Origin: Oryzias latipes
Lineage: Eukaryota; Chordata; Actinopteri; Beloniformes; Adrianichthyidae
Length of the DNA stretch: 64,000 nucleotides
Assembly: GCF_002234675.1 (NCBI RefSeq)
Contig: NC_019859.2
Coordinates: forward strand, 1,805,740-1,869,739
Reading direction: 5' to 3'
The position numbers were made by a program, and so were the translations under genes. Positions 8,605-57,260 of this stretch are shown here, in pieces (within the stretch, counting starts at the first letter, position 1; each line of letters opens with the position of its first letter). The notes below the pieces were generated by a model. It was not told where the DNA came from. It searched no databases and worked only from the letters and a program-made list of their open reading frames with translations.

Positions 8605-11600
8605 TCACAGGTTCTTGGTGTTTATGTGAGTCTTGTAATGCTTCGTCAGGTGGTCGCTCCTCATGAAGCGTTTCTGACACTGGCTGCACTCGAAGCGCTT
8701 GTCTCCTGAGGACGACAACAGGCAACGTGAGAGCCGGGCTTTGGTTCGGCAAAGCGCCGGCAAAACGGATGAACATCGCTTCATAAATCTGCAAAAGTAG
8801 GCCAGGTGAAAGGAAGACAAACGTAATCGTTCCAGTTGGTCAAAGCTGTACGAGGCTCACACAAAATATCAAGTGAAGAAGACGCAGGCGTGTTGTCGAT
8901 CCGTGTGGACATCCTACAGGCGCCCTTATAGATCAGGTGCGCAGCACTTGTGCGTGGTCATTATGGAGCCAGTACTCACACCTGACTGACTAGAGCCGTC
9001 CGACAGCATCACCAGTACGTCATAGGTGTGTGTAACTTCCGTCAGCCTTACAGATAGACTTACGGTGGCCGTACGAGCCTCAAGGCAGCTGCGAGACACA
9101 CCTGTGCTCCTCGTAACAGCACCTGTACAGGTGGACCCCCGTACGGGTGCAAGTCGAGAAGCCACTATCCAGGATGAAACATCCAAGATGCATGAGTACA
9201 TCAAGCTCAAGGCCCCAACTGACAGTGTGCTCAGTGAATGTCTCAGGCAATGGAGAGCAGAGGATACAGTGCTGGAGGACAGATCCTCATGGGAGGACAA
9301 ACCCCTGCATGGGATGTACCACCGGACCATAACTGAAGTGGCTGATATCAAGAAGTCCTACCAATGGCTAGAAAGGGCTGGCCTACAGGACAGCACCGAA
9401 GCACTCATCCTGGCAGCTCAGGAACAAGCCCAGAGCACCAGAGCCATAGAGGCTCAGATCTACCACACCAGACCAGACCCAAGGTGTAGATCTACCACAC
9501 CAGACCAGACCCAAGGTGTAGATCTACCACACCAGACCAGACCCAAGGTGTAGATCTACCACACCAGACCAGACCCAAGGTGTAGATCTACCACACCAGA
9601 CAAGACCCAAGGTGTCTTTGTTGCAGAAATGCAACACAGGACGGGGTCTTTTTTATTTAAACGTCTTAGTCACTTTTCGTGATATTTTCCATATCCACAG
9701 TCTGTCTTTATATATTTGCTGACTATTTTCTTTAAATAAAGTGATGGAAGCAGGTTTTTTATGTTGCCCGGCAACAGGTGATGGAAACCACGGTAGTTTG
9801 CTGCCTTCAAAACGTTTGCGTGTTTGTACGCACCTGTGTGCGTCCTGGCGTGCCGCTGCAGCTCGTCGCTGCGCGTGAAGCGCTTCCCGCAGTAAACCCA
9901 GTTGCAGACGAAGGGCCGCTCCCCCGTGTGCAGCCGGACGTGAGCTCGGAGCAGCGACGTTTTCCTGAACGTCTTCTCACAGCCGGGAACGTGACAGATG
10001 TGTCTCCGTTTGCCCACCTCGCCGGGCCTGCAGAGGAAACGCACAGAAATCACATCTGCTCAGAAAAATCCCATTTCAAACTCAATGGTGGCTGAAATAT
10101 TACACTGCTGAGATGCAAGGTAGCACATGTTGCAAAGAAAAATACAAAATAAATGCTTTTTTGGTTTAAAAGGGCAGAAAGATGCTCCTTCTGCTTCTCT
10201 TCATGTGTTGTTGGGACACCAATACATATTTTTTGTGTAGCTGTAAATAAAAGAAAATCCTCCAAAAATATTTCAAAAAGGATTTAAGAAGCATAAATTA
10301 TAAAGGAATCCTGTTAAAAATCCTCACATAACCCGCTTAAATTAAAGGTTGGGGTTTTGCTGCAGTTGAGGAACCTTTCAAACCGCAGACCTGCGGTGTC
10401 CTCGGCTGCGCAGACTCACCTTTTGTCTGCGTCTTTGCAGTTGGGGCAGGTGCAGGCCATGCGCCGCTTTTTCTCCCCGGGTTGACTGGGCAGCTCCAGC
10501 GTGAAGGTCTGTTCTACCTGGATGGCCGACTGACCCTGGGTGGGCGCCAGCTGCAGCCCCCCGCCCTGCATGGTCTGAACCGTCAGGTGCTGCTGGCCTG
10601 ACGGGGGCAGAAATGAACACCGGTTGCAGTCAAGGAGCATTTCCGGGGCGTTTTAGCCGAACGGGTGATGCTGCAGCACTTAAATTCTCCTTTTCACGTC
10701 CCTCGGCGTGTTTGGGGGGAAAGCGGCGTCTCATAACCAGTAACCAGCTGGAGAAACCGTAACCGTCCTGCTCATGAATATCTTCTAACCACAATCTTTG
10801 GATCAATGTATTCAAAATATTACCAGTTTTTCTCCAAATACAACCGTAAAGCTCGCTATCTAATAGTTTATATCTAGAGGTAAAATACTGCAAATATTTT
10901 TTTTTCAATTAGCAAAGTGTCAGCTGACAGGAAACCAACGGTGGTGGGCTTTTCACAATAAAACAGCACAAACGGCTCACACTTAAATGAAGACACTGAG
11001 ATAAAGAGAATGGACAGAACTTAACGGCAAACGTCAGCGACAGAAGGCGTGAAACAAGAGCGTTAGACGTTTTTCCATCAGTCAAATATGTTCTAAACTG
11101 CAGATATTGTTTGGATTTTATCCCGTGTTGAACCGGTACTTTTGAAACTGTTCCGGTTTATAAACGGTGCTTCAAGAATCACAAAAGACACGCCCGATTT
11201 TCTCCAAACGCCGGCCTCACGACGAGCATTCAAGCGGCTGAGTCTAAAAGCGTGTCTCCGACCAGCCGGAGGCGGTGAGGGGCGGAGCCCCCGTGGGCGC
11301 TCACCTCCCGTGTTGGTGATGGTGACGGGAACCCCCTGGACCTGGACCCCGTTGATGCTGATGGTCTGGACCGCCTGTGCCGCCGACGGGAGCTGGGACG
11401 CGTTGAAGGTGATCATTCCACCCGCCGGGGCGATCTTCGCCAACGTCCTCTCCTTTTTCCCCCCCGGCTTCTTGGCGTTGGCTGACGGGGAGGTGATGGC
11501 GGGGGCCACCGAGGTGGTTGGGGTGGTTACCGTGGAAACGGACTCCTGGAGCTGAACGGACTGCCACTCGCCCGTCGCTGTCTTAAAGATGATCTGAATA

Positions 11601-14600
11601 AAGACACGTGAGGTGAAATCTAAAAATGAGATTTGGAGTTTAACCATTAAAATTCCTTTTTTTTAATGCATCATTGAAACTGTTGTTACAGCTTTTTCCA
11701 ACAGAAATGTCATGTATGTTTGCAGCTAAAAGGAATAAATAAAAAAGCTTTAAACTGCAGAGAACTATATATTTATGAATGGAAACTTTTAAAAAAAAAG
11801 TTTGACCTGATTTGTTGTTTTTAACCAGAACTTCTTCAAAATTGTCATTTAACAAAAATAAATCAAAAAGCGACTTCAAGGTGATGAAGGAGCATAAATA
11901 TTTGCATCCTCAACGATGGCTGACTTTTCTTTTTTTACAAAAAGTAGAGTAGAAAATACATTTTCAAAATAAAGTGTGGGTGTCGGGTGTGATTTTACGC
12001 CGGAGGTGCTCGTTACTTCAGACGCCGGTCTCTAGTCGTGGCCGGGCGTCATGAAAACACACCTCCCACGCGCTCTCGTGCAGACGCCGGGTGTCTGTGC
12101 CGTTTGTGCTGCGAGTCAGTGTGGCGACGCCTGAGACACGGTCATTCGGTTTAGCGTTTAAATTCCGTGAGGCGGCAGCCGCCGAAGAACGTTCTGGTGA
12201 GGAATCTGCACGGCATTAAGGGGCGTTTCTTAAGAGCGGCGTGAGCAGATGGATGATGTTGAGACGACGATTTCCTGGTGGAGAGGCAAAGACGGCGAGC
12301 AACGAATTAACAAACTGCTTTGAGCGTGAATTATTGAGCAAAGGCGGAAAGGTGGGCGTGTCTCAGGGAAGGCGATCCGCGTGAAAGCCAAGAGGATTTT
12401 TGATGCTTCAAAGAGAAAAAGAAACGCTCACAGCCAGAGATAATCAGAACATCATACAATGTTTTCTCATCCTTTCAATGAATCTTGAAAGGTTCATCTA
12501 GTGTTGTTTTCTGCATTTTGTGACCCAACTTCACCGCAAGATGAACCCGTTAGCCGTCGCCGTTCTGCCTGGGAGTTTCCAATCGTCTCTAACAAATGCC
12601 GGCTGACAAACTAAAGGCAGATATACAGTGGTCGACAATTTGACATAAAGAAGAACTGATATGAAAGTACGAACGTTAGGAAAAGCTCTCAATACTGTGA
12701 TGTCATGTGACGTGACTGCCAGCGTGGTGGAGAAGTCGTACCGAAACACGTCGGTAAAATGATCATCTAAAGTTTGGGGAGTTTTTTTTTTGGTTTTTCC
12801 ACTAAAGATGAAAATATTTAATTTGCAAATCATGTTTTCTGTTAAAAACACTGTAGTAAGTTTAGTGTAAAGGACTGTGAGGGTTTTCTAGTTGTTCTAT
12901 TTCTATGTAGCTGCTGCAGCTGCATCTTCTTGTCGTCGATCTATCCGATCAATCGGAACTTTGAGGATGGAAAAACGGTGGAAAACATGTTCAGGATTTG
13001 GTGTTAAATGATCCAAAACAACAGTGATGTTTATGTTTTGTTTACTGCTGAAGTTAACCGGGAAGTTGATAGAAAACCTTCTGAGTGTGACGTTTGATTA
13101 CTGGGGGAGCAAAAGTTCATGGCTGGTCAGTAGCCACACGGTTCAGAACACACACCAAAATAAAAGTGCAGCGCTGGCCACACGTATTTTAGAAATGGCG
13201 TGCGAATAGTCACTTCCATAATTTCATGTCGTCCTGAGGCGACCCCAAGTGTACGTCTTTAATGATATAAATACGTTTGACCATCAGATTCAGAGAAAAG
13301 GCAGCTCTGGACTGACTTTTGGCAGATACCTGTGTGGGCGTCGGCTCTGTTGGAGAGGTTTGCAGGTTTGGAGAGACCGGCTGTCTTTGTGGGACGGGGG
13401 GCAGAGTGGCCGAAGCAGCTTGAACCACCTTCAAGGCCTGCTGGGGAATCTGGACCAGCTGCGAGTCGGCTTTGGGCTGGACCAGCTGAACCTGCTGCAC
13501 CACAGCCGGCTGACCGGGACTCTGGACAATCAGTAGGTTGTTTCCCGCCTGCAAAGACAGAAACATCCCAGATCCAGATCCAGATCCAACAAGTCTTCCT
13601 GAAACCAGCATCCTGCAGCAGACGGCACAACGTTCCTTGTGACTTCCTCCGGTCCTCTCAGTTCGGCGCGTAGATAACTGCTAATTTAAGTGAAAATCTC
13701 TGCATCTATGAATCTTTTTTACCACCATCAAGTTTTCTAAACCTGCGTCGGGACTGTTTTAGATGTTTAGCACCAAATAAAACCCAAACGATGCCCTCCC
13801 CCAGTGAAGTTCATCTTCTGCTGCATCGCAGACGCACCTGAATGATGTTGTCACCAGCCTCGATCAGTATGGTCTCCATTTGGTCCGGAGTCGGGGAGGC
13901 CGCCTGCGTGGGGGCGGGGGGCGGAGGCTCGGCCGGCAGAACCACCTTCCTCTTCCGGCCCCGTCGGCCCTTCTCGGGAGCCGTGAGGGAAGCCTGCGTC
14001 TCTGTGAGGATGGGCGCCACGCCCACCTCGCCGGTGGCCACGTTGAGCGGAAGCGTATGGCCGCCGGGCAGCTGCACCACCGTCGCAGAAGCGGCCTTTT
14101 TCGCCTTCAGAGACGGCTTGATGGCTACCGTCTTCTGCGGCGTGACCGGAGCGGCGGCGGCCGGAGCCGGCACGGTCATAGGAGCGGTGATGATGGCCTG
14201 GTTGGTGCCTGGAATGAGTTGGATCTGACCCCCCTGTGGCATCATCTGGATAGTCTGCGGTCCCTGGATCTGCGGCACCACCTGGTACTGGATGTTAGCC
14301 GGGCCGGAGGCGCTGGAGCGGGAAGGACTCTGCTGGATTGTGAGGACGATGGGGCTGCCGGGAGCGCTGGAGCCCAGGCCGGCGGGGAGCTGGATCACAT
14401 TCCCCTTAGCTGACAGGAAGCCCATGTTTTTGGGAGGAGCTGGGGCTATGGGGGCCGGCTTTATGGGGAGGAGCCTGCGGGGTTGCGGCTGCGCCGGCGG
14501 AGAGGTGACGGGGGCCTGAGCGGCGGGAGGGCCGATTTTACTGCAGGTGGCCGCCAGCAGGGCCAGAGGGGACGGCTGGGTGTCCTGCTGTGAGAAACAA

Positions 14601-17600
14601 ACACCTCCGTGAAAAACAGTTTCAAAATAAAAGCCAAGCGGCTGAAATAAAAGCACAAAGGTGTTACTCCACCTGTAACACCTTTGTGCTCCTCTTTGGT
14701 CCTCAAGCAACAGGATGAGAGTTTTCTACATTTAAACCTGGACCAATCTGGATCACACTACCTTTATGTGTTTTGTCTTTACACCTGAAAAACGATCAAA
14801 TTCATGTTCTGACCAAAAAAACGGAAACGATGCTGAACTGAGATCCTTCTAGGGAGGCTAAGATGATCAGATCATGAACAAGAAGATAAACTGATCGCTT
14901 TGTTTTCTCAAAAAAAAAACAATCCAAAACCTGTTTGGTGTAAAGTAAATTTAAGTAATTTAGACTAAACAAAAATGAATGAATGAACTTTATTATTACA
15001 CTGCTGAACTGTACTGAATGTCACTGCTGCTGCTGACAAAAGATTTTCCCCATTGTGGGATAAATAAAGTCTTATCTTATCTTATCTTCTTTCTCTTTCG
15101 GCTTTTCCCATCAGGGGTCGCCACAGCGAATCATCCTTTTCCACCTCACTCTATCATGGACATCTTCTACCCTAACATTAGCCAACTTCATGTCCTCTGT
15201 TAAGACATCCTCTTATCTTATCTTATACAGGTTTAAAAACATCATCAGGGCACCAAAGTACTACACAATAAAAAAAAAAAAAAAAAAGAAAATAAAAAAA
15301 AAAAAAAAAAAAAAAAAAACTTAGAGCAAATTATGAACAAGTATTAAAATTACAGCATAAAACTATACAGGGAAATAAACTACATGAACTAGTAGGAGAA
15401 GAAAAGCTGCCATGGACGACTGAGTATTACAAGCTTTTTCAAACAGACGTGTCTGACGATGGTGTTTCAAACTGCCCAGATGTGATTTCATGTGCAGTTC
15501 TGGAGGTAAGTTAACAGTTTATGTGACTTCAGGCCGTCAAACAGCAACTATGTATGTTTTACACATATGGCATGGATGAAAATTGGATTATTGTGTGTGA
15601 TTATTGCGCTGTTTATATGCAATTCATTAGTGATTTGTGGGTCAATTGTATCATTTGAACGTGACATGTGCGCCGAATATGCGATCTAAAAGTTATACTT
15701 TGATGGTTTGTGCGTGAAAAGTCTGTAAGACAAACGTGGAACAGTCGTGGAAAGACACACATTTGTGTATGGATCTCACAAAAAAATACTCGCAATTGCT
15801 TAAGATTAACGTAATAATTGTGCATAAACTACGTAAAATACTCGTAAACTGCATATTTTCTCAACCAACCAAAGTTTTGACAGCTCAAAACTGAAGTAAC
15901 GTCTAGAGCAGATGGCTGAAAGCCTCGACGGATGACGAACACAAGAAACACAAATGAATGAGGTATAACACGTGGAAAATGCACAAAATGTGCGCCGTGC
16001 CTCAGAATTGTGAGTTTTTACATCATTCATAGATTTGATGAATCTGTATTGGATGATCCAAGTAAAGAAAGGAGCTGACAGGATTTCTGCTTGAATCCAC
16101 AGAAAATATCTCACTTCAAGATTTCTGACAAAAACAAACAAACAAACAAACAATATTATTGATCAGATATAAAAACGTTGATACTTTTGAATTTCTCTAG
16201 TTTCCAGACTGAAATCAGCAACAATAACAGAGTAAAGCTAGTGCTAAAAAGGGAAAAACAAACAGAATGGGGGAAAACTGACACTTCATGGTGGTCAGAA
16301 AAAGTTTTTGGAGAAAAACCTTTGAGACACGTGAAAATAAAAACTTCTCAAACTTCTGAATATATCCTAAAAAAGTCGTTAAATAATCCTTCACTGACGG
16401 GAAACGTCAATGACTCATTTCCAGATAATGTTTGTAAAATCAAAGAAAGCTCTTTTTAGGACAAAAACGGACATGTTGAAACTGATCCACATTCAGAAAT
16501 TAGAGACGGCTCACTGCTGAATGATCCTCACCAAACAAGCTGTTTAAGCTGCTTATGCAAAAGGGCAGAAACCACACGAGCCAGTGTGGATGGAGGTTTG
16601 TGCTGGGAACCTCTGGTCCAGTAGAACCTAACGGATTCTGTGGTTCTCCACAGGGAAAAGCATGAGACTCAATAAAGACCGGATGTGAGCGGAGCTTTAA
16701 CCAGCACTGCAGTGCTGCTGCAGCTAAGAAAGAAGATCTAACGGAGGATCTAAGGGAAGATGTGGAAAAAAGGCCCAGTGGGGTCCGGAGAGATTAGGAG
16801 ATCCTGAAAAGTGCTGATGTCATGAGATCATTTGGACCTTGTCTTCTGTGACGGAGCATAATAAACTCACAGAAATGGTCAGATTGTTTGTAAAACGATT
16901 TCAATAAATCAGTAGACAGCAGTAACTCGCCACATTCAGCTAATGGCAAAACCTTAGTTTGAACCAAATGTGACAAAATAGCAGAACAATGTCCACTGGA
17001 AAGGTTCCCAACCAAAAACTGAGATGAATCTAAGTGTTTAGCAGCGACTGTTACTCACTTGCGTGGAAGCAGAGGAGGGCTGAAGGTATTCACTGGGGCT
17101 GACAGCAACAGTGGTGGCCATACTTCCTTCTTTATCTGAAACCAAAAACAGCGCATCAAAATGAATAAAGACTGGTTGCGTCTTATTTTCAAAACTCCAG
17201 AAGCTACTGGAAGGTCAAAACTCTCCGAGCTTCAGCCAAACGTTCTCACATTCAGCGGCGGCGCTGCTACTGAAGATCTGAGCAGAAGTCAAGGCTGGAG
17301 GTCCCAAATCAACAAACTCTGACACAGCTTTAGGAGGTTTCTGTTCTGGCATTTAAAGAAAGGCCAAAATGCCTTTCAAATGGAAATGAACAGACAAAAA
17401 TGAACAATGTTTTGATCAAACTTGCAGGCACAAAAAAAGCTAAAAGTTTCAAGTTAAAAGAAACAAAATAAAGAAGTCAAGAAGAAGACGTGTTAAGACA
17501 TAATCGTTAAGGTGCATCTTAAAAGTAGAGATGAAAGCCTTTCAAATAAGGCCTCTGCTGCCCTTTAATGCATTTAAAAAAATCTTTTTAAGTAAAATAA

Positions 17601-20714: not shown

Positions 20715-22130
20715 TCATCTCCATAGCAACCATTTTATGTTTTGGTCGCCTGGCGATAACAAACAGATCAGTGTCAGTTTCAAATGAATTGGAAAGAGAA
20801 CACTTTTGAGTTTCCTTAGCAACAGAGATTTATTGCTAACCGTGCCCACATTCCTTATATGTCTATATCCAGTGTTTTTCATTATGTTCAGTTCCAGCCA
20901 TGGATGCATGCATTCGAATTTCACAGAATTCCATTGAAAGACATGGGAGTTAGAACAGTGCACCACATTTGCTAGCTCGCCATGTGCACGCTGTTCAAAA
21001 TCTAAAACTTCTAATTCCAACATTTTGTCCACAGTAGCTTGCCATTGATGCCCCAGAAGTTTTGAGCCGATTGATAAAAATCCCAACTGAAAAGTTTAGG
21101 TTTGTATCCTGTAATGAAGATGGACTTTTCCCGAAGTCAAAGGTCGGTGAAGCCTTTTCCCGAAGTTAAAGGTCGACGAAGCTTTTATAGGCGGTTGTAG
21201 ACTTACGTTAGCAACATTTGTGTGAAATGTCGTGAAAATTGCAAAAAAAAAGTTAATTTTTCCATACTGTGTAAAAACGCGAAAATTGCGAAATCGCAGA
21301 TATTGGCACAAAATGGCTGCCAACCGTAGGTCATGTCGCCACCTCGTAATGATTTTAATACTTTGTTTGGATATTCCCGACAAGGTCATATCAGTTTCAT
21401 TAGCGGATTGTAAAAAAAAAAAATTCAAAAATTTTTTTTTTGTCGAATCAGCACTTTTTTTGCGACAGTTTTTTGTTTACCACTTCCACATTCCTTTATC
21501 GATCTTGTCGTATGTTACATCGTTTTGTTCAGCGTGGGCCAGGGAATCGCATCTTTCATTTTCATGACATTAGGATAATAAATGTGCTAGCTATGATCGC
21601 AACAGTTGCGAATTCGCCCTGCTCACGCCGTTCAAAATCCACAACTTCCAATTCCAACATTTTGTCCACAGTAGCTTGCCATTGATGCCCAAGAAGTTTC
21701 GAGACGATCGATTAATTCCTGAGGACGAGTTACGGTTTGTATCTGGTACTAAAAGTACTTTTTTTTTCAAAATGCAAGATGGCGGCCTTTTCCAAAGGTC
21801 AAAGGTCAACGACATGTCTGTGGTGTTTGTAGACTGGAGCTGGCAGCAAGTGTGTGCAATTTTGTGAAAATCGCTCAAACAAAAGTGTCGTTTTCCCATA
21901 TTGTGGAAAAACACCAAAATCGCCAATTCTCAGAGTTGGCCACAAAATGGCCGCCAAGCCGTAGGTCGTGTGGCCGTCCCATATTGATTTCAAAACTTCC
22001 TTGGGATATCCCCAACATGTGTGTTTTGGTTTCGTAACTGTATTTTGAAATAGTTTTTTTCGGCCCCAAACGCGATTTTCGGCCCATTCATTTTTTTTTA
22101 CGGGATCGCTTGCCGTGATGTCAACGTCTT

Positions 22131-22750: not shown

Positions 22751-24076
22751 ATTACAACATAAACAAACAATACAAACTTTAATACTAAGATTAAAAAAAA
22801 TCCTAAAAAAGTATAGCAGATCCTTCATAAGATAAATATTAATTGATGGAGTACAAATGTGACACGAATGCACAGTCTGCGCAGACGTGATCGCGTTCTG
22901 TTCCGTCTGCACTGGCCTGGTTTCAGCGCTTTCTCATCTGTGCCCCACAAGTAAATGCAATCGCAATCTACAGCAAGCCAGAGGTAATGTAAAGAACAGG
23001 GTTTTGGCCATCAAAAGCGCCATTTTTTTACGCACTTCTTAAAAGTAGCACATAATTGACACAGTCAGGACGGGCGTAAAAAGCAGCATTAAATGCGTTC
23101 AAAGCTGTGCATCCAAAACGCTGTTTTTCTGCGTCACATATGGGTGACGTGCTGTTATGTTTGCTGTAGTCTGGTGGTTAAAACAGCAGCACTTTTTTTT
23201 TTCCAGCAGTAAGTGTGGGTTCGGTTTCTTTCTTTTGCTGACTTTCAGTGACATTATTGTAGTTAGTGCGTCCTTTTTATTTACTCTTATTCTTCTTTTC
23301 GTTTATTTACATTTATTTATTGGATTGATTGACTGATTGATAATATATAAAACATATCAAAGCAAGCTATCTTTGTTGCTGACAATAAAAAAATAAATAT
23401 ATTTTTTTGTCCTCATAACATGCTGTTACAACCAAAACACCTGATTCAGAAATCAGTCATAACTTTGCAAATGATGTATCAGGCTATTCACTCATTCCAG
23501 CAGAGGTGTGTGGTGGTGCAGCGATAAAGCAGCCAGCGCTTCATGCCTTGCTTTACTTTTTTACATTTACATTTTCTCAAACGTATTCAATTCTTTTTAG
23601 ATCTGGGGAAGCCGGAGCGCCCGGAGAGAACCCGTGCTAACTGGATCCTCTTCCAGTGAAGCCACAGCGCTGATCCAAAGAGCATTAGAGCGGGAAAGAC
23701 TGCTGTGACTTCCATTCAACAAGAACCTTCAGTGTGTTTGCCGGTTACCATAGTGACGGCATTTTTAGTTAAATAGGTTGGGTTGAAGGTTCCCTGGAAG
23801 AGGATCTGGTTTAAAGTCCCAAATGGATTTAAAAAAAAAAAGAAATCAAAAAGATTTAAATGAACAAAAAGGTATTTTTTTAACTATATCATAAAAACTG
23901 TTTAGAAATTGATCCTGTTTGGAATTAATAACTAAACTTAGAGGCTGAATGCACCCTGTACATTCCTGCATATTTATTTCTTAATATTCTATAAATGTCT
24001 CTAATTTCTTATTTCCTACTGGTTATCTAAAAATGTCTCTATTTTTTTTTCTAATAATCTAAAATGTCTCTAATGT
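22751..24076. other. Spacer downstream of the coiled-coil gene
   Basis: AT-rich with no recognisable gene. The last 100 bp (about 23985-24115) contain an imperfect tandem repeat, AAATGTCTCTAAT then TTATTTCCTACT, carrying several minus-strand AATAAA signals for the coiled-coil gene. Confidence 0.4.
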
Positions 24077-24116
24077 TTTATTTCCTACTAGCAATCTAAT
24101 AATATAACCTAAACCC

Positions 24117-26624
24117 TTACAGAACCAGGAGATCCTCAACCTGATCCTCAAAGTCGGACCACTCCTCATCAAAATCGGAACAATCCTCATCATCCTCGCC
24201 ACATTCTTCCTCATACTCCTCCTCCTCACATTCCTCATCATCCTCATGTTTCTCTTGATCTTCCTCAGTCAGTGAAGAGACAGAAACTTTCATTTCTTTG
24301 ATGGAGACTGCTCCTTTAATGGAATTCACAGACTCTTCATCATCTGAAGGATTCAGGAGCTCTTCATCGGAACTGTTGTCCTCATATTCTTCCTCATCCC
24401 CTTCATATTCCTCCTCACACTCTTCCTCATATTCCTCATCATCTGAAGGATTCTGGAGCTCTTCCTCATACTCCTCCTCCTCACATTCCTCATCTTCCTC
24501 ATGTTTCTCTTGATCTTCCTCAGTCAGTGAAGAGACAGAAACTTTCATTTCTTTGATGGAGACTGCTCCTTTAATGGAATTTACAGACTCTTCATCGTCT
24601 GATGTGTTCTGGAGCTCTTCATCATCTGAAGGATTCTGGAGCTCTTCATCAGAACTAATGTTCTCACACTCCTCACCATCTTCCTCATTTTTCTCTTGAT
24701 CTTCCTCCGTCAGTGAAGAGACAAAAGCTTTTATTTCAGTGATGGAGACTGTTTCTTTAATGGAATTTACAGACTCTTCATCGTCTGATGTGTTCCGGAG
24801 CTCTTCATCAGAACTGACTTTGTCATCTTCCTCCTCCTCTTCCTCACATTCCTCATCATCCTCATGTTTCTCTTGATTTTCCTCAGTCAGTGAAGAGACA
24901 AAACCTTTCATTTCTTTGATGGAGACTGCTCCTTTAATGGAATTCACAGACTGTTCATCATCTGAAGTATTCTGGAGCTCTTCATCAGAACTGATGTCCT
25001 CATCATTTTGGATGCCTGATGAAGAGGAGGATGAAGGCTCGTGCAGGCTTGCTTCCTCCTGGTCTGTGAGGATGTTCCTGATGGACTCTGTCAGGTCCTC
25101 CTTGGTTTTCTGGAGGTCCTGGTTCTCCAGCTGAAGAACATCTGCTGCAGCCTTTTGCTTCTTGAACTCTTCCATCCACTCCTGAGCTTCAATCTCTTCC
25201 ACTTTCAGGCGTGAGATTTCCGTGTCCAGACCTGCCTGCTGGTTCTGCAGGCAGCAGATGTCCTCCAGCATTCTGGAGTACTCCTCCCTCATCTGGTCTC
25301 TTTGGTGGCGTCGGTCCTGCAGCGTCTGACGTTCCTCCTGCAGAACCTCCGTTTGCTGCTGGAACTGCTGCATCTGGAGGTGCAGGTCTTGGATTTTTCC
25401 TTGAAGGATGACAGTTTCCTTCTCCATCCTCTCTCTTTCCTCTCTGGCGGCACAGACTCTGTCCTCCAAATCCAAATGATGACTGATTTCATTTTCCAGT
25501 CTGGAGATTTCCTCTGAGAGGTCAGAGTTGATCTGGACCGCCTTCTTGTTTTTGGCTTGATGTTTCTGACATGCAGACTGCAGAGCTTTCATGTTCTTGA
25601 TGGACTTTGTCAGCTGCTCCTTGGTTTTCTGGAGTTCTTGGTAGTCCAGCTGAAGAACATCTGCTTCAGCCTTTTGCTTGTTGTACTCTTCAGTCCACTC
25701 CTGACCTCTAGCTTCTTGAATTTTCAGCTGTGAGATTTCATTTTCCAGTCTGGTGATTTCCTCTGTGAGGTCAGAGTTGATCTGGAACGCCTTCCTGGTT
25801 TTAGTTTGGAGATTCTGACATGCAGACTGCAGCTCCTCCACCTCCTCAGAGGAGCGTTGGACTCCTTCCCGTCTCCTCTGCAGGTCTTTGGTTTCTTTTC
25901 TGAGCTGCATCAGCTCCAGGCTGAGTCTCTGGTGCAGCATGCGGAGCTGGATGGCGTCGTTGGGCTGCTCTCTCAGCTGGGACAGCTCTGCCTGCAGCTC
26001 TTTCTTGAGTTCCTCCAAACGGTATTGTTCTTCAACCATGGCGGGGAACTCTTCTCTCATTTGGTCTCGCTCCAGGATTTCTGTCTGCAGCTTCTGAAGC
26101 TCCGTTTTCAGAGCGGCGGTCTCCTCTTCCAGAGCGTGGAAATGGTTGAACTCCAGTTTGTAGTCCATTTCCAGGACGGCTTGGTGGCCGACCTTTTTCT
26201 GCAGCTTCTGCAGCTCGGCTTTCAGAACTGCAGACTTCTTCTCCATGATCTTCCTCTCCTGTTTCACCCGCTCCTGCTCTAGTTTCAGCTCTTCGTCCAG
26301 CCAGAGTTTGGACCTCAGAGCCACCATTTCCTCTTTGCTTTCACGGATGTTCTCAGAGAAGGCAGCGATTGTCTGTCTTTCTGCCTCACATTTCTCCTGG
26401 ATCTTCATCTGCTGCTGAACTTGTGTGTTCAGGGTCTGCAGGGATTTCAGCAGCTCTTTGTTTCTCTGAGCAGCAGCTTTCCTCTCCCTCTTCAGGTTCT
26501 TGCGGGTGCTCTCCAGATCCTTCATGTTAGACAGATTTTTGCCAATCTTCTCCATTTGGCTGACCATGATGGAGTTCTGGGTCAGGATTGTCTCTGTACT
26601 TTGGCTGATTTCTTTCAGAGACAT
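24117..26624 (-). CDS. Unrecognised single-exon coiled-coil protein with acidic repeat tail, 835 aa
   Basis: No family was recognised. The first ATG is at 26624 (context gaaaATGT, A at -3). The frame is open 63 nt further up to a TAA, but has no earlier ATG. Residues 1 to about 520 are almost continuous heptad-rich coiled coil (Leu/Glu/Lys/Gln). They include an internal duplication: LQSACQNLQTKTRKAFQINS and LQSACQKHQAKNKKAVQINS. From about residue 545 there are four units starting SSDEEL at about 545, 604, 657 and 751. Each carries ESVNSIK, VSSLTEED and long Glu/Asp runs, with many S-D-D-E sites of casein-kinase-2 type. Units 3 and 4 are nearly identical in DNA (about 24250-24345 versus 24510-24600), which suggests recent expansion. 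No signal peptide, membrane segment or zinc motif is visible. An AATAAA lies about 35 nt past the stop (24082-24077). It could be a scaffold-like or nuclear acidic protein, or an old retrocopy; function is unknown. Confidence 0.75.
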   Translation of the reverse strand: MSLKEISQSTETILTQNSIMVSQMEKIGKNLSNMKDLESTRKNLKRERKAAAQRNKELLKSLQTLNTQVQQQMKIQEKCEAERQTIAAFSENIRESKEEMVALRSKLWLDEELKLEQERVKQERKIMEKKSAVLKAELQKLQKKVGHQAVLEMDYKLEFNHFHALEEETAALKTELQKLQTEILERDQMREEFPAMVEEQYRLEELKKELQAELSQLREQPNDAIQLRMLHQRLSLELMQLRKETKDLQRRREGVQRSSEEVEELQSACQNLQTKTRKAFQINSDLTEEITRLENEISQLKIQEARGQEWTEEYNKQKAEADVLQLDYQELQKTKEQLTKSIKNMKALQSACQKHQAKNKKAVQINSDLSEEISRLENEISHHLDLEDRVCAAREERERMEKETVILQGKIQDLHLQMQQFQQQTEVLQEERQTLQDRRHQRDQMREEYSRMLEDICCLQNQQAGLDTEISRLKVEEIEAQEWMEEFKKQKAAADVLQLENQDLQKTKEDLTESIRNILTDQEEASLHEPSSSSSSGIQNDEDISSDEELQNTSDDEQSVNSIKGAVSIKEMKGFVSSLTEENQEKHEDDEECEEEEEEDDKVSSDEELRNTSDDEESVNSIKETVSITEIKAFVSSLTEEDQEKNEEDGEECENISSDEELQNPSDDEELQNTSDDEESVNSIKGAVSIKEMKVSVSSLTEEDQEKHEEDEECEEEEYEEELQNPSDDEEYEEECEEEYEGDEEEYEDNSSDEELLNPSDDEESVNSIKGAVSIKEMKVSVSSLTEEDQEKHEDDEECEEEEYEEECGEDDEDCSDFDEEWSDFEDQVEDLLVL

Positions 26625-26689
26625 TTTCAAACTTTCTTTTAGAATTTCTGGAATCGTTCTTTTGATGCTTTGTGTCTCTCTTGCCACTT

Positions 26690-26964
26690 CTGCTCTTTTT
26701 TAAAATCTCTTTCCGTCGTTTCCCTCGGTGTCTCTGTGAGTTCAGGTGGTTATATTAAACAATGTTGCTGACAACATTAGATGACGTCACATGCTCTCAT
26801 CTGACGCTGAATGACCTGCTAAAAAATCATGATGACCTGCTAAACAATCGTGGTAATGACGCAATATGCCGTCATCTGTCTGAATGACCTAATGTGACAT
26901 TTTCTGACGGTGTGTCACGTGCTGCGTCGCAAACGTTATGATTTTATGGATTTATGAAGCGCTT
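26690..26964. other. Spacer with short direct repeats, probable 5' flank of the coiled-coil gene
   Basis: The spacer between the ORF and the NRF1-like array contains repeated GATGACCTGCTAAA and CGTCATCTG/TGAATGACCT words near 26785-26895 and several TGACGTCA-like or ACGTCAC words. There is no open coding region. It is likely 5' UTR or promoter of the minus-strand gene. Confidence 0.35.
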
Positions 26965-27090
26965 AATTTTCGCGCATGCGTGCTGACGGCTCGTCCACAG
27001 AGCCTCTTCCTGCTGGCGCATGCGTACTGACGGCTCCTCCACAGAACCGCTTCCTGCTCGCGCATGCGTGCTGACGGCTCCTTCACAGAG
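26965..27090 (-). promoter_or_regulatory. Three 44-bp repeats each with an NRF1-like palindrome
   Basis: GCATGC cores at 26974, 27018 and 27062 lie exactly 44 bp apart, each in the context (C/G)GCGCATGCGT. This matches the palindromic NRF1 consensus. The rest of each unit (ctgacggctc, cacag, cttcctgct) is also repeated. The array is about 350-440 bp upstream of the coiled-coil ORF's ATG, so it is a plausible promoter for that gene; no transcription start can be read from sequence. Confidence 0.5.
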
Positions 27091-27854
27091 TCGCAGTTCG
27101 ACCAGCGGTAGCTGCGCAAACGAGAGGAATTCTGATGTTTCTGGACGTCATCGATCAATATCAATACTCCAGTGGTATTGATTGATTGGTTGTGAAATGA
27201 CGTCATGAAGCAGAGATGTTCAAAGGAACCGCCGAGGGCCTGTAGACGTTTTCCCGGTTCTGAACTTCCGGACCCGGAAGTCCTGGAAAAGATGTAACTT
27301 ACATTTTACAATAATTGTCATCCAAACTTTAGCCATAGTTTCCATCAGAACCTCCCTCTAAAGTACACAGTTATATTGACAACATGACTTAGTCATTTGA
27401 CTGTCTTGTTCGTAGACAACGACACAAGGACTTGACGTTCTGATGGCACTGACATGTTTGATAGAAAGACTTAGTTTTGAGAGATGAACTAAAGATTTTG
27501 AGCAAGTTACAGGCTTTTGCAAGAAATCCATAGTGTTTTGCTGTTTGTACAAATTGTTTTGAGAAATGCACACACGAATTTGCAAATTTCAATTCTGATC
27601 TGAGAATTGTACTAAAGCGACTGAGAAAAACTGTGAGAACCCTCCAGAAAACTTAATTAAAAATCATCATCATTTTTATGTTTTCAAAGTTGTCCATACA
27701 TAAACCATATAAAACATACTTTGTAGTGGTGCAAATATAAAATGTAAAATTTGGCTATAGATATAAGTTAGTAGCTAAAATGAATCAAAGATCAGTTTAA
27801 ATCACATTCCTCAACTTTTATCAGCATTAATTACATGTTGCAAGCCAGTTACTT

Positions 27855-29160
27855 CTGTGCCGGTCCCAAGCCCGGATAAATAGAGAGGGTTGCGTCAGGA
27901 AGGGCATCCGGCGTAAAATTTGCCAAAATAAGCATGCGAATCATCCACAACACTTTAGACATACCGGATCGGTCAAGGCCCGGGTTAACAACGATCGCCA
28001 CCGATGCTGTTAACCTACAGGGTGTCTGTGGAAATTTGACTACTGTTGGTCGAAGAAAGAGGGGAGGCAGAAGGGTCCGGGGCCAGAGAGAGAAGGGAAG
28101 AGTCTCAGAAAGAGTCTCAGACAGGATGATGAGCCTAAAGTTAGAAATTGAAGGGGTGATGGTGAATGTAGTCAGTGGGTATGCGCCACAGGTTGGCTGT
28201 GAGTTAGAAGTGAAAGAGAGATTCTGGAGTGAGTTGGATGAGGTCATAGAGAGTATCCCCAGAGGAGAGAGAGTTGTTATTGGAGCAGACTTTAATGGGC
28301 ATGTTGGTGAGGGCAACAGAGGTGATGAGGAGGTGATGGGCAGGTTTGGTGTGAAGGAAAGGAATCTGGAGGGACAGATGGTGGTGGACTTTGCGAAGAG
28401 GATGGAAATGGCTGTAGTCAACACTTACTTCCAGAAGAGAGAGGAACATAGAGTGACATACAGAAGTGGAGGTAGGAGTACTCAGGTGGACTACATCCTA
28501 TGTAGACGAGGTCATTTGAGAGAGGTTAATGACTGCAAAGTGGTGGTAGGAGAGAGTGTAGCCAGACAGCACCGCATGGTGGTGTGTAAGATGACTCTGG
28601 AGGTCAGGAAGAAAAAGGGGGGGAAAACAGAAAAGAAGACCAAGTGGTGGAAGCTACAGAATGAAGAAACTTGTGAGGAATTTAGGCAGAAGTTGAGACA
28701 GGTCCTGGGTGGTCAGGGTGAGCTTCCAGAGGACTGGGAAACTACAGCAGAGATTATCAGGGAAACAGGTAGGAAGGTGCTAGGTGTGTCATCTGGAAAG
28801 AGGAAAGACGGTAAAGACACTTGGTGGTGGAATGAGGAAGTACAGGAATGCGTCCAGAGGAAGAGGTTGGCTAAAAGGAAGTGGGATGTAGAAAGGACTG
28901 AGGAAGGTAGACAGGAGTACAAGGAAGCGCAGCGTAGAGTGAAGAGAGAGGTGGCAAAGGCCAAACAGAAAGCTTACGATGAGCTATATGACAGGTTAGA
29001 CACAAAGGAAGGAGAGAAGGACTTGTACAGGCTAGCCAGACAGAGAGACAGAGATGGGAAGGACGTGCAACAGATAAGGGTGATTAAGGACAGAGATGGA
29101 AAGGTGCTAACAACCTAGGAGAGTGTACAGAAAAGATGGAAGGAGTATTTTGAGGAGCTG
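27855..29160 (+). mobile_element. RTE-type LINE, 5' part with endonuclease ORF
   Basis: The leader GGTTGCGTCAGGAAGGGCAT then CCGGCGTAAAA (27888-27918) is typical of fish RTE elements. The ORF 27934-29118 (394 codons) is an apurinic-type endonuclease/exonuclease/phosphatase domain: VVIGADFNGHVGEG, TYRSGGRSTQVDYILCRRGH, ARQHRMVVCKM. The frame stops at TAG 29116-29118, inside what would continue as ESVQKRWKEYFEEL, and the sequence then changes to another repeat near 29160. The reverse transcriptase is missing. It is a dead 5' fragment, likely inserted after the neighbouring gene formed. Confidence 0.8.
27934..29118 (+). pseudogene. RTE LINE endonuclease ORF, prematurely stopped
   Basis: Craniofacial-development-protein-2-like endonuclease, as in many fish RTE copies. 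The catalytic-type motif GADFNGHVG is at about residue 117, the DYILCR block at about 186, and the RQHRMVV block (conserved His) at about 211. The C-terminal 150 residues are Lys/Arg/Glu-rich linker before the missing reverse transcriptase. Confidence 0.75.
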
Positions 29161-29573: not shown

Positions 29574-32206
29574 AAAGCCGCAAGCGGCGTTGTATGGCCC
29601 GCAGACGCAACCCGCCTTCCACGCCCAACTCTACGCACCACCGCCTCCCTCACTGCCCACTTTTGATAAAGGCTAGTCAAAACGGCTTTTGCTAATTATG
29701 CTAACTATGCTAGCTATGCTGATTTGGCTAAAAGTGCTAGCATTGCGATCATCATCATCAACTGACTCAGGAAAACAGATTATTAAAAATGCTAATTATG
29801 CTAACTATGCTAGCTATGCTAATGTGGCTAAAAGTGCTAGCATAGCGATCAGCATCATCAACTGACTCAGAAAAACACATTACCTAAAATGCTAATTATG
29901 CTAACTATGCTAGCTATGCTAATGTGGCTAAAAGTGCTAGCATAGCGATCAGCATCATCAACTTACTCAGAAAAACACATTACTAAAAATGCTAATTATG
30001 CTAACTATGCTAGCTATGCTAATGTGGCTAAAAGTGCTAGCATTGCGATCAGCATCATCAACTGACTCAGAAAAACACATTGCCTAAAATGCTAATTATG
30101 CTAACTATGCTAGCTATGCTAATGTGGCTAAAAGTGCTAGCATAGCGATCGGCATCATCAACTGACTCAGAAAAACACATTCCTCCATTGGTGAGAGCTA
30201 TATGCCATAAGTTGATAAAAAACCCACTTTTTCCAAAATGGCGGCTTTTTTGTTTATTTTATCTCCATAGCAACCATTTTATGTTTTGTTCCCCTTGAGA
30301 AGACGAACAGATTGACGTCAGTTTCGGACAAATCGGTAAAAGTAAACTTTTTGTCGTCCTTAGCAACAGTGGTTTTATGCTAACCACGCCCACATTCCTT
30401 ATATGTCCATATCCAGTGTTTTTCAATGTATTCAGTTTCAGGCATGAATGCATGCATTCAATTTTCACTGTATTGTATTGAAATGCATGGGAGTTATAAC
30501 AGTGCGCCACTTTGCTAGCTTGCCAAGCGCACACCGTTCAAAATCTACAACTTCTAATTCCAACATTTTTTCCACAGTAGCTTGCCATTGATGGCCAAAA
30601 AGTTTCGAGACGATCGATAAAAATTCCAACGACAAGTTTACGTTTGAATCCAGTGGCAAAGGTGTTTTTTATAGAAAATTCAAGATGGCCGCCTTTTCCC
30701 GAGGTCAAAGGTCGACGAAACTCCAGAGGTGATTGTAGACTTATGCTACGGACATGCGAGTCACATTTCGTGAAAATCGCTCAAAAAAAAGTTCCTTTTT
30801 CCATATTGTGTAAAAACGCGAAAAACTCAAAATGGCCGATTTTGGCACAAAATGGCCGCCAAACCGTAGGTCGTGTCGCCATCACGTAATGATTTCAAAA
30901 CTTTCTTTGGATATACCCGACAAAGTTATCTGGGTTTCGTTAGCCGATTCTTAAAAATAAAATCCGAAAAAAATTTTTTTTGCCGAGTCAGCACTTTTTT
31001 TTGCGATCGTTTTTTGTTTACCACGGCCACATTCCTTTATGGATTTTGTCGTATGTGACATCATTTTGTTCAGTGTGGACCAGGGTATCGCATATTTCAG
31101 TTTCAGGCTATTCTGATAAAATATGTGCGAGCTAGCTAAAACGGCGACGGTTGCGAATTCGCCACGCGCACGCGTTTCAAATTCTACAACTTCTAATTCC
31201 AACATTTTGTCCACAGTAGCTTGCCATTGATGCCCGAGAAGTTTCAAAAAGATCGATAAAAATCCCTAGGACGAGTTTTCGTTTGTAACCGTTACTGAAG
31301 GTGCTTTTTTTGAAAATTCAAGATGGCTGCCCCTTCCCAAGGTCAAAAGTCAAGGAAACTTCTCTGGTAGTTGTAGAATCAAGCTGGTGGCTTGTGTGTG
31401 CAATTTCGCTAAAATCGCTCAAACAAAAGTGTCGTTTTCCCATATTGTCAAAAAACACGAAAATCGCCATTTCACTGAGTTCGCCACAAAATGGCCGCCA
31501 AGCCGTAAGTCGTGTGGCCATCCCATAATGATTTCATAACTTCTTTGGGATATGTCCAACACGTGTGTTTTGGTTTGGTAACTGTATTTCGAAATATTTT
31601 TTTTTGGCCCCATAAGCGATTTTCGGCCCCTTCATTTTTTTTACGGGAACGCTCGCCGTGATGTCATCATCGTGGGGGGGGTGACGTTCTCTTTGCCGAA
31701 AATTCATTTTCAATTTATCCTCGGTGTGCGCCAATTTTGGTGAGTTTTCGGGTATGGGGCGGGGGTCAAATTTTCGCTGAAAGTGGAAGAAAGAAAGAAG
31801 AAGAATAAAAAAAAAAATAAAAATAAAAATGAAACGAAGCAGAAACAATATAGAAGTTTTTGCGGTTAGGATTTCCTATGTATTTCAATGCGGCCTGTCT
31901 TTTACTATAGGCTGGGCATGTCTTTTTGGCTTTAAACCCGTTCTTTGAGGGCTTTTTGGGGCTTTTTTGTGTCTTTGTCGTCATTTTTGCGACTACAATT
32001 TTGTCGTTTGTGCGATGGTGTTGTGCGTGTGTGTGTGTATTTTTGTTGCGTTACACAATTGTCGTGTTGTTGTGTGCTTTGGGCGACTTTTGACCCCATT
32101 TTTTGGCGTTTTGACGCGTTTTCTTGACGTTTTGGACCTTTTTGAGTGTTCGACCCTCGTAGCAGTTACAATATGGTCCTTGCACTCTGTGAGTGCTGCG
32201 GGCCAT
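29574..32206 (+). mobile_element. 2.6-kb non-coding element with terminal hairpins, flanked by AAT repeats (E1)
   Basis: The flanks are (AAT)n on both sides (29561-29572 and 32205-32218). The left end has hairpin GCCGC-AA-GCGGC (29577-29588), then ATGGCCCGCAG (29594-29604). The right end has hairpin GCACTC-TGT-GAGTGC (32182-32196), then CTGCGGGCCAT (32196-32206), the exact inverse of the left word. Inside are a 100-bp tandem array and a 639-bp direct duplication (GTAGCTTGCCATTGATG at about 30578 and 31217). It has no convincing ORF. Right-end hairpins resemble Helitrons but the terminal bases do not match well; unclassified. Confidence 0.7.
29691..30190 (+). repeat. Five copies of an exact 100-bp tandem repeat
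   Basis: GCTAATTATGCTAACTATGC occurs at 29691, 29791, 29891, 29991 and 30091. Units differ by a few bases and contain CTCAGAAAAACACATT. Each unit itself has short CTA/GCTA sub-repeats. Confidence 0.95.
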
Positions 32207-55300: not shown

Positions 55301-56809
55301 AGAAACAGGAAAAACAACGGAGCATTCAACCAATGAGTGAGAGCAGATATTTCACTGTGACATGCATTAGTGATAGGCTCGTTTTGGGGGTGTCCTCTGA
55401 GTGTCCCACCTGTCTGGGTCGTGCTCTCCGCAGGGGGAACCCGCCATGTCCACCAGACTCCCAGCGGAGGACACCGAGTAGGCCACGGACGGCCTCTTGT
55501 CCAGGAGGTGGCTGGAGCCGCTGCAGCTCTTAGTCCGGAACAGTTTACTGAGCCGCAGCTTCAGCGAGCCCTTTTTGGACTTCCCCGGGACTTTCAGCGT
55601 CGGAGTCCGCGGCGCGCTGGCGCACCGCTCGGGCCGCCTGCCCGGCGTCGACGCCTGGCTCGGGTTCGGGCTCGCGGCCCAGGGGGGGGTCCGGACGGGG
55701 GCGGGGTGGTGCGCCGCGCACACCTGAGCCGCCGCCCCCGCCTCCGGGGCGGGCTCCTCCACCTGCCTCCTCAGCTCCACCTGGAAGCTGCTGATGGAGA
55801 AGGCTCCGGTCATCTTCTGGACCACCTCGCGCTTCCGGTGGAGGAGAAAGTCTCGGCGTCCGTCCTCGTCCTCCGCCTGGTCCTCCGGGCAGCCGTCCAT
55901 GCCCAGCCCGTCCCCGCTGCCCAGCCCCTCCAGCACCAGCAGGGCATCGCTGGTCTCCGTGGGGTCGTCTCCGGGCGGCACCCCCGCCGCCCCCGACCTG
56001 TGCGCGCCCTGACACGAGCACTGCGGGAGCTCCCCCGCCTTGAACAGCATCTTGGGGACCGCGCCGACTCCCAGCTCCCCGAACCTCCGCGCCAGCTCGA
56101 ACACGGCCCCGTCCCGGTCCGCCGCGCCGCATCCCCACGCGGAGCTCACCACGGTGAGCGGGGTGGACCTGTCCGACAGAACGGGCCACTCCGGCGGGGA
56201 GGCGAGGAGCCGATGCCGGCGGCACAGCTCCGTGGCTCCCGGTCCCTCGGCCGGAACGGAGAGCGGCGGCGGGGCTCTCCATCCGGGGTCCTGCGGGTCC
56301 TGCTGCCGCTGCTGCGCGTCCGTCAGGCTGCGGGGGTTGTTGTTGGCGGCCGGGCCGGAGCCCGCGCTCTGCTCCAGCGCATCCCGCGGCGGATTCAGCT
56401 CCAAAATGCCCTCCCCGTTCCGAATGATGTTGGAGAAAACGAGCAGCTGAGGCCGCAGGCCGGAGCTGGGGGCGAAGTCGAAGCCCTGGGCCTCCACGGA
56501 GCTCTGCTGAGGAGGAGCCGCGGACAGCGGGGCTCGGCCCTCCGTGCCCCCGGCGTCAGGTGCAGCCGTGCCGTCGCCGCTCGGCGGAGCTTTGTTCAGG
56601 AATCCGCTGGGATGCTCGAGGCCCGCGGGGTCTCGGCCGATGTCCAAGCCCGCCTTGACGCCGCTGTGAGCCAGGACCTCCTTCCCCAGCCCCGACACGA
56701 CTCCTCCCGGCGGCACATTCCCGTTTTCTGCGTCCAAGCGGTCGTCCTCGGCCGCGGAAACCAGGCGCATCAACACAAAGTCGGGCGACATATCTTGCGC
56801 GTTGTTCAT
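40399..56809 (-). CDS. socs7: Suppressor of cytokine signalling 7, 9 coding exons, 806 aa
   Basis: Cytoplasmic adaptor that binds phosphotyrosine targets by its SH2 domain and recruits Elongin B/C-Cullin 5 by its SOCS box. Coding exons: 56809-55410, 54546-54467, 50991-50887, 50009-49875, 49748-49603, 47770-47602, 43426-43298, 42283-42148, 40519-40399 (stop TAG 40401-40399). Introns are GT-AG and the phases sum to 807 codons. The SH2 domain starts at about C623 (CGWYWGPMNWEDAEMK), with phosphotyrosine Arg R650 in FLVRDSS. The BC box SLQHLCRFCI is at 742-751 and the Cul5-type LPLP at 763-766. Proline stretches PHPPTPPPPPRR (exon 3) and LPLPLPPPPPPS (exon 4) fit the Nck/SH3-binding role of the human protein. 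Exon 1 carries the conserved block DPTETSDALLVLEGL. The chosen ATG begins MNNAQDMSPDF; the frame stays open upstream to about 57094, so the true start could be earlier. Human SOCS7 is 581 aa; the extra length is N-terminal. Confidence 0.95.
40520..42147. other. socs7 intron 8 with LINE tail and palindrome
   Basis: It contains (AAGCC)n at about 41274-41295; a LINE 3' tail (AAAACTTTGAGTAACAAAAG, then AAACTTTGATTTGATTTG) at about 41765-41822; and a perfect inverted repeat at 42035-42081 close to the exon 8 donor. Confidence 0.55.
42035..42081. repeat. Perfect 23-bp inverted repeat, 1-bp centre
   Basis: Arms 42035-42057 and 42059-42081 pair without mismatch around G42058 (ACATACCTGACATG against CATGTCAGGTATGT). 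It lies 67-113 nt into socs7 intron 8 from the exon 8 splice donor. Confidence 0.9.
43650..43768 (-). repeat. tRNA-derived SINE head
   Basis: Reading minus, CAGCTCAGTGGTCTAGTGGG then AGAGTGTCC (A-box like) and GAGTCAAATCC (B-box like) form a pol III-type promoter pair of tRNA-derived SINEs. In socs7 intron 6. Confidence 0.45.
44010..44105 (-). repeat. SINE/LINE tail fragment
   Basis: Plus strand ACCCGCTGAAGCCCTTTCAG and GGTTGCTGGAGCCTATCCCA are the common fish tail words. In socs7 intron 6. Confidence 0.45.
45705..45995 (-). repeat. Inverted partial copy (E4) of the E1 family
   Basis: Reading minus, CAAGATGGTTGTCTCCTC, then GAGGTCAAAGGTCAATGAAG, and the far end GGCCATCCCATAATGATTT parallel 31318-31540 of E1. 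It lies in socs7 intron 6. Confidence 0.55.
46000..46420 (+). repeat. Unclassified CT-rich segment, possible interspersed repeat
   Basis: GC- and CT-rich block (TCTCCCCCTCCGGTCACCGG, TCCCAGCAACCCCGGCCC) contrasting with its AT-rich surroundings. It looks like dispersed fish repeat sequence but I cannot name it. No splice-flanked ORF. Confidence 0.3.
46935..47205 (-). mobile_element. LINE 3'-tail fragment in socs7 intron 6
   Basis: Reading minus, GGGGGAGGATCCCTCCTACA, then TGTGGTTTCTTC, GGAGTTTTTCCATACGGAGG, and a GAAATGAATTGAAATAAAGA end. Same 3' end class as 4145-4365. Confidence 0.6.
47923..48022. repeat. (AATAT)n pentanucleotide array
   Basis: About 100 bp of near-perfect TAATA/AATAT pentamers in socs7 intron 5, about 80 bp from MITE copy B. 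Confidence 0.9.
48103..48307 (-). mobile_element. piggyBac-like MITE, copy B
   Basis: Same family as copy A in reverse orientation, flanked by TTAA on both sides (48099-48102 and 48308-48311). It lies in socs7 intron 5, just beside an (AATAT)n array. Confidence 0.75.
48340..48364 (+). repeat. Poly-G tract, about 25 G
   Basis: Uninterrupted G after AAACACT, about 30 bp beyond MITE copy B. In the socs7 transcript it is poly-C. Confidence 0.85.
51959..52056. repeat. 98-bp palindrome, zero spacer
   Basis: Arms of 49 bp pair around the centre 52007/52008 (TGAACCG|CGGTTCA) with a single mismatch (52043 against 51972). It lies in socs7 intron 2. Its right arm overlaps the terminal repeat of the fold-back element that follows. 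Confidence 0.95.
52034..52722. mobile_element. Fold-back element of about 690 bp with long inverted ends
   Basis: The left end TTTCTGATAATGCACAC then TTGAAGGCCATTAACCCGCC (52036-52074) is repeated inverted at 52681-52720 with about one mismatch. Nested inside are further inverted pairs: GATCGCCTTTTTTCACAAAA against its complement near 52600-52620, GTGACCGGAACTTC (52309) against AGTTCCGGTCAC (52370), and a perfect palindrome at 52484-52517. It has no transposase ORF and no clear target duplication. Confidence 0.7.
52745..53285 (+). repeat. ACGTA-rich interspersed repeat, copy 2
   Basis: CGTCATACGTGAACATACAT, ACGTGGTCTTTGCGTGAAAT and CACAAATGAACCACATTAAA parallel the 58.7-kb copy. The fold-back element sits directly at its left side. 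In socs7 intron 2. Confidence 0.65.
53290..54460. other. Remainder of socs7 intron 2
   Basis: One minus ORF of 163 codons (53667-54158) is open but Leu/Phe/Ser-biased and has no recognisable domain or splice context. No exon is supported here. Confidence 0.4.
55040..55090 (-). repeat. tRNA-like 3' half, probably SINE-derived
   Basis: Reading minus, AGCTCGCGGGTTCGAGACCC then GGCTCTGGC contains a canonical B box GGTTCGAGAC and a T-arm-like stem. The 5' half and anticodon arm are not evident, so it is not a tRNA gene. In socs7 intron 1. Confidence 0.45.
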
Positions 56810-57260
56810 AATTATTCGACAGCGGATCCGGATTAGCGTCGATCTGCGTTCACATAGCTCACCGCGGGGATGTGGCTCCGGTGATAAAGAAAGGGCCAAA
56901 CCGCTGCTGCCGCGCGCGCGGTCTGCGAGCGCAAAAAGGATCGGAGGCGACTCCCTCCCTCCCCCCTCCCGCTCTCCTACCACCGGGCAGCATCCATGTG
57001 TGAATGATCGGACAAACGACTGCGGTTCGCTCCCGGCGGCGGCAGGCCGGCCCCGGGTCAGACATGCGGTCTGGTTTCCGGCTCCCGGACTCAAAAACAG
57101 AGGAGTCTCCGGTCAGCGAGCGCCGTCTGCCTCCCCGGTTCCCAGCCAGGCCCCACCCGCTCCGCCCGTAACGCCGCTCCATGAGCACCAATGATGAGAG
57201 CCATAAATTCAGCAGTGGCGCTTTAACATCCCAGACTGGGTTCCCGCCTCAGCCTCGCGG
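55480..57260 (-). promoter_or_regulatory. socs7: CpG island over socs7 exon 1 and promoter
   Basis: CpG-dense sequence (CCGCGCGCGCGG near 56910, many GGCGG/CCGCC words) covers exon 1 and about 450 bp upstream, in sharp contrast to AT-rich flanks. Long shadow ORFs on the other strand arise from the GC content. It is likely the transcription start region; the exact site is not readable. Confidence 0.65.

Follow-up and report, generated by a model that had tools for sequence, protein, structure and literature searches.

The window analysed here, 64 kb of the Oryzias latipes genome (C1:1,805,740-1,869,739 of 734 Mb in 25 contigs), carries on its minus strand an unspliced coding sequence of 835 codons plus TAA (24117..26624), with the start ATG at 26624-26622 and the stop TAA at 24119-24117. 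The predicted protein has 835 amino acids, and the uninterrupted frame described in an earlier sequence-only reading, which did not state the strand, was thereby borne out. No further in-frame ATG was found between the start codon and the last stop, 26 codons 5' of it. The longest frame beginning with ATG had 234 codons in 30 Markov-1 simulations of the 64-kb window and 265 codons in 500 Markov-2 simulations with the gene's own composition; the observed frame far exceeds chance expectation. An AATAAA is located at 24077..24082 (minus strand), 35 nt after the stop, where the sequence-only reading had placed a poly(A) signal; it is present at the matching position in three near copies on C7 and absent from the corresponding position in the C2 and C12 copies. 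DNA comparison showed that most near copies have in common a stretch of promoter, gene and 3' flank corresponding to 23565..27282 (minus strand), and that homology to loci L009 and L010 continues, in pieces, further downstream.

Structure of the predicted protein

The first 516 amino acids (25077..26624, minus strand) form a coiled-coil core, as indicated by alignment A1 (see below) and by a windowed heptad signal, and the first ~300 of them are the portion common to the superfamily in that alignment. In the windowed test, the heptad signal of this rod was higher than in all 1000 shuffles, in agreement with the long coiled coil proposed earlier, while an unwindowed Fourier test over the whole length gave no signal, possibly because shifts in the phase of the coil cancel the periodicity at that scale. 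The internal duplication that had been noticed in the protein was not visible in self-BLASTP, but the repeat search does find it, as two repeats on the minus strand: D1, of 158 nt at 83% (25591..25748, partner 25072-25229), and D2, of 99 nt at 90% (25734..25832, partner 25485-25583). The partners of D2 are 249 nt, or 83 codons, apart, and by the same 83 codons the core of the window gene (516) exceeds those of the C2 and C12 copies (433).

Residues 517-835 (24120..25076, minus strand) constitute an acidic tail with 41% D/E, in which a pattern scan detected 33 S/TxxD/E sites (CK2-type motifs). Unit comparison divided the tail into four acidic repeats, located on the minus strand at 24777..24953 (unit 1), 24591..24776 (unit 2), 24336..24590 (unit 3) and 24120..24335 (unit 4 together with the C-terminal cap). 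Units 3 and 4, already described as almost identical in DNA, showed 98.9% identity over 93 nt and 98.3% over 120 nt. The number of units was 4 in the window gene, 5, 7 and 2 in the C7 copies at 1.09, 2.27 and 0.30 Mb, 6 in the C2 copy and 1 in the C12 copy; the tail varies from locus to locus (1-7 units), which supports the previous suggestion of a coding gene evolving by change in repeat number. Many units matched best another unit of their own locus, above all in C2, and several had their best match at another locus.

Regarding the surroundings of the gene, the window contains a 394-aa open frame at 27934-29118 (plus strand), which by eye resembles a piece of a retrotransposon endonuclease and had no Pfam match at E <= 0.01, and a tandem repeat of a 100-bp unit at 29690-30181 (4.9 copies, 95%). 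The segments 20745-22032 and 30303-31576 both match one flank of the C7 2.27-Mb copy (L010) and therefore represent a dispersed repeat. The frames at 11093-14710 and 55367-57094 (-) presumably resemble exons of the Sp-type transcription factor and SOCS7 types; neither matched Pfam at E <= 0.01.

Upstream region and promoter motifs

Motif scanning revealed an exact CRE, TGACGTCA, at 26782..26789 (minus strand), 165 nt upstream of the gene, and each of five sister copies has an exact CRE no more than 230 nt upstream. The promoter-like array reported previously was recovered as a 44-bp unit repeated 2.8 times in tandem (26970..27094, minus strand), with three NRF1-like sites that each have one mismatch to the NRF1 consensus. 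In general, the promoters of the window clade have high CpG, exact CREs, NRF1-like sites and 6-8 TGACG half-sites versus 1.0-1.4 expected; the scan showed no common TATA promoter. The window promoter itself has one exact octamer in 420 nt (simulation P=0.066).

Outside the window clade, clustered CRE-like octamers were found in eight of nine members. The octamer TGAYRTCA, picked after one-mismatch CRE matches had been seen, occurred 3-9 times per ~420 nt in eight members from five groups and at most once in each of 312 background slices, the copies not being independent of each other. The count omits the ninth member, L041, where no CRE-like site was present in the 223 nt upstream scanned, and L009, L010, L011 and L032 as near twins of tested members; the octamers of L015 fall partly inside a local tandem repeat. 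With one mismatch tolerated in total, and with a spacing picked after the octamer count, pairs of octamers exactly 10 bp apart were detected in four of six window-clade copies, six of the eight other members and 1 of 312 slices, and were absent from the window promoter itself. At two tandem loci, all ten octamers in 15.4 kb were situated in promoters. These data support that the promoters of the family are enriched in CRE-like sites. An ISRE-like sequence, GAAANNGAAAC, was observed 89 nt upstream of the ATG in all four members of the C13-type subfamily (L030, L035, L037 and L038) and at this position in no other of the 14 members scanned; it might represent interferon control of that subfamily.

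Related loci in the genome

Merging four protein searches of the same genome gave a census of at least 53 related loci, spread over 15 of the 25 contigs, a lower bound given that 54 of 280, 131 of 225, 131 of 212 and 95 of 168 candidates were scored in the respective searches. The impression of a single surviving gene among dead transposons was therefore wrong. According to the stop and frame columns, 44 of the 53 loci counted have a stop-free frame of 250 codons or more; the other nine are those at C2 6.04, C6 4.49, C7 0.30, C8, C12 1.63, C15, C20, C21 and C19 13.4 Mb, the last of these because it is ambiguous. The census omits DNA matches on C17 and C22, which are short and lie in the acidic part, while C16, whose short DNA match is in the coil, was admitted via protein. 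Coding frames were unspliced in all whole frames read, untranslated exons being invisible in genomic DNA. Some loci are clustered, with four on C19 at a spacing of about 9.85 kb and eight at C13:24.9 Mb, and the two tandem spacers examined contain no other frame of more than 176 codons.

The DNA search from the window gene detected C7 copies at three places (91-94% over >2 kb), a C2 copy (96% across the initial 891 bases) and two C12 copies that matched piecewise at 84-85%. Within the window clade, which comprises eight loci, C7 0.30 Mb contains an in-frame stop, C12 2.47 Mb has lost its start, and C12 1.63 Mb and C2 6.04 Mb are broken. In L013 (C12 2.47 Mb), AGG occupies the position of the start codon, although the 585 codons that follow from this point are open. 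Seven of these eight loci are situated no more than 2.5 Mb from a contig end, a cut that was set after their locations had been seen and that applies to copies which are not independent.

Alignment A1 showed that 14 members are colinear over an N-terminal stretch of ~300 residues, in which 13 columns are invariant. In protein searches, the window gene matched C7 0.07 Mb with an E-value of 6e-55 and C4 10.36 Mb with 5e-42; the most distant group (C12 14.3 Mb and C13 24.9 Mb) showed 23-27% identity at E about 1e-6 to 1e-11, a link that is less sure because coiled coils inflate such scores. In the midpoint-rooted tree, the window gene groups with the C7 and C2 copies and then with C12 (2.47 Mb), followed by C7 (0.07 Mb) with an unstarred support of 94/95; by eye, the latter has a single short acidic tail lacking repeats.

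Comparison with known families

The earlier statement that no family was recognisable agrees with the Pfam and PDB searches. No Pfam model reached its cut-off for the window gene, its near copies, L040 or the first A1 member, for which scores are given, and the best E-value for the remaining 13 A1 members, for which only E-values are given, was 2.6e-4. Residues 6-77 of the window protein weakly resemble the CEP15-like family (PF15134; E 0.015 for the whole protein and 0.003 for its N-terminal part), and membership was rejected at 17.9 bits against a curated cut-off of 27, with 3 of 14 members matching at E <= 1. The best Pfam match of any member was that of L040 to the microtubule-binding coil of GAS (PF13851; E 6.8e-6), a model matched by 7 of the 14 A1 members at E <= 1; it was likewise rejected, as L040 scored 26 bits and the N-terminal part of the window protein 10.6 bits against a cut-off of 32.3, and this match may reflect generic coiled-coil likeness. 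The PDB sequence search gave no match with the window protein alone and three with the A1 profile (a myosin-7 fusion, vimentin and SPF27; E 0.003-0.008), all of them generic coils and none specific. In the literature, no title or abstract opening among the best matches listed concerned such a family.

The NBPF genes of primates, which are multi-exon, likewise combine a coiled-coil N-terminal part with recently expanded repeats (Olduvai, DUF1220) of varying count in many copies. Their repeat is a different domain, and the genes described here are intron-less. The GOLGA6/GOLGA8 and POTE genes of primates are also multi-copy coiled-coil genes and were spread by segmental duplication, whereas the present family consists of intron-less genes with a CRE-like promoter of their own. 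The Pfam matches listed included no golgin or ankyrin model, and no diagnostic domain of NBPF or GOLGA was detected at E <= 1 in L009, L010, L012, L013, L015 or the window gene, nor in the best 25 of 43 Pfam families for A1.

Selection on the coding sequence

Nei-Gojobori counts over 15 pairs of paralogues gave dN/dS values of 0.17-0.63, with pairs that are not independent and histories mixed by conversion. A second set, of pairs within subfamilies, fell in the same range: the trio on C14 showed 0.17-0.25, based on few changes, while values were 0.35-0.63 for C13-type pairs and 0.37 for the C12/C13:24.9 pair. In comparisons between subfamilies, synonymous divergence had reached or almost reached saturation, and no value was obtained for two pairs. 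The bias against nonsynonymous change was significant in two of the three pairs tested, that is, in C1-C12 (144/1030 nonsynonymous vs. 68/269 synonymous differences, p=1.8e-5) and C1-C7(2.27) (p=0.0015), and not in C1-C2 (p=0.08). A ratio near 1, which the sequence-only reading had named as speaking against its interpretation, was thus not found between these paralogues. The counts support mild purifying selection on the predicted proteins; values near 0.5 also fit weak constraint.

Spread of the copies and homogenisation of their cores

The six gene-length copies (the window gene on C1, three on C7 and one each on C2 and C12) have promoter and 3' flank in common, which indicates that the near copies spread as DNA, and since their likeness spans ~27282 to ~23565, the duplicated unit includes the promoter. 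Spread of the window-gene clade by DNA duplication, promoter included, is therefore supported by the sequence comparison.

The coding cores on C1, C2 and C7 are 97-99% identical, while their flanks differ by 7-24%, except in one C7 pair (1%). For the pair C1-C2, divergence amounts to 3.2% in the core, compared with 24.1% over the 680 nt upstream and 22.8% over the 620 nt downstream. Synonymous sites were significantly less diverged than the 5' flank in C1-C2 (13/268 vs. 132/547 differences, p=3e-13) and in C1-C7(1.09) (6/314 vs. 68/567, p=2e-8). In the control pair C1-C12, synonymous sites had diverged as much as the flank (68/269 vs. 132/549, p=0.73); these sites are thus not inherently slow, which argues that the cores on C1, C2 and C7 were homogenised. 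The 1% difference of C7(1.09) from C7(0.30) in both flanks and core marks a recent duplicate, which is uninformative on conversion. Among 57 variable core sites, the C7 (0.30 Mb) copy has the C2 base at five neighbouring ones (776, 778, 782, 783 and 793), at which a different base is common to C1 and the two remaining C7 copies, and elsewhere it is near C7 (1.09 Mb) or C7 (2.27 Mb); its core reads as a mosaic of the kind that exchange would produce. An assembly artefact is a less likely cause of the near-identical cores, since it would hardly account for flanks that have diverged. The comparisons support that the cores on C1, C2 and C7 were made alike after divergence of the flanks, most simply by interlocus gene conversion.

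Discussion

We consider it rather probable, for the explanation as a whole, that the window gene belongs, as a working copy, to a large superfamily of intron-less genes; the gene itself is real and probably functional, one of a large family without a name. The best reading is that of a structural family of fast turnover, with bZIP control, a dimeric rod and a phosphorylatable acidic tail. The genes would be driven by bZIP factors of the CREB/ATF/CREM type, and copy number would set the dose. The coil would form a dimeric rod, while the tail, being acidic and of CK2 type, would be phosphorylated and would bind a basic partner, e.g., a histone, protamine or tubulin, with a strength set by tail length. 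CRE promoters are common in genes of male germ cells, and germ cells or the early embryo would be the likeliest place of action, germ-line expression being a guess. In PMC12759076, CREM was matched twice, both times in the name of an author among the references cited.

That these loci are instead slowly dying duplicates of an ancestral gene, carried to new sites by DNA duplication, without current function and open because they are young, appears unlikely, even though broken members exist (C7 0.30, C12 2.47, C12 1.63 and C2 6.04 Mb) and dN/dS is just moderately below 1. Subfamilies that are near synonymous saturation relative to one another are still open over 400-1000 codons, most loci counted are open, and the substitution bias of the C1-C12 pair points in the same direction.

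Repeated retroposition from a spliced parent would account for the lack of introns in every frame read, and a cDNA donor could explain why likeness falls near the coding ends. This explanation is quite improbable, given that the promoter and 3' flank shared by near copies are contrary to it for the later copies, that CRE-like promoters recur in distant subfamilies and that no spliced parent was recognised among the matches listed; nor were target duplications seen by eye. Retroposition may have given rise to the founder alone.

It is conceivable, as a long shot, that the superfamily arose from a germ-line conflict within the genome (drive or suppression among copies), in which dosage and tail length would be weapons, conversion would spread winning rods between chromosomes and turnover would occur near chromosome ends. 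It is hardly credible that the product is an accessory protein of a mobile element, such as a transposon, by which the gene was carried around, as suggested by intron-less copies dispersed over many contigs in transposon-rich DNA and by retrotransposon-like frames near some copies (L011 and L016, by eye), since within the window the two edges of the shared unit are not linked by any inverted-repeat pair, the edges of the copies have by eye no common ends or target duplications, no block beyond the unit is common to all copies in an all-against-all comparison, and the two tandem spacers are empty of long frames.

At least 53 related loci, mostly open and without a Pfam name, represent a sizeable annotation blank in a fish genome, and short-read expression or variant data will blur among the copies. 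Identity between paralogues does not date duplication in this family. With alike cores on three chromosomes, diverged flanks and a variable tail, these genes provide a clean natural case for the study of concerted evolution.
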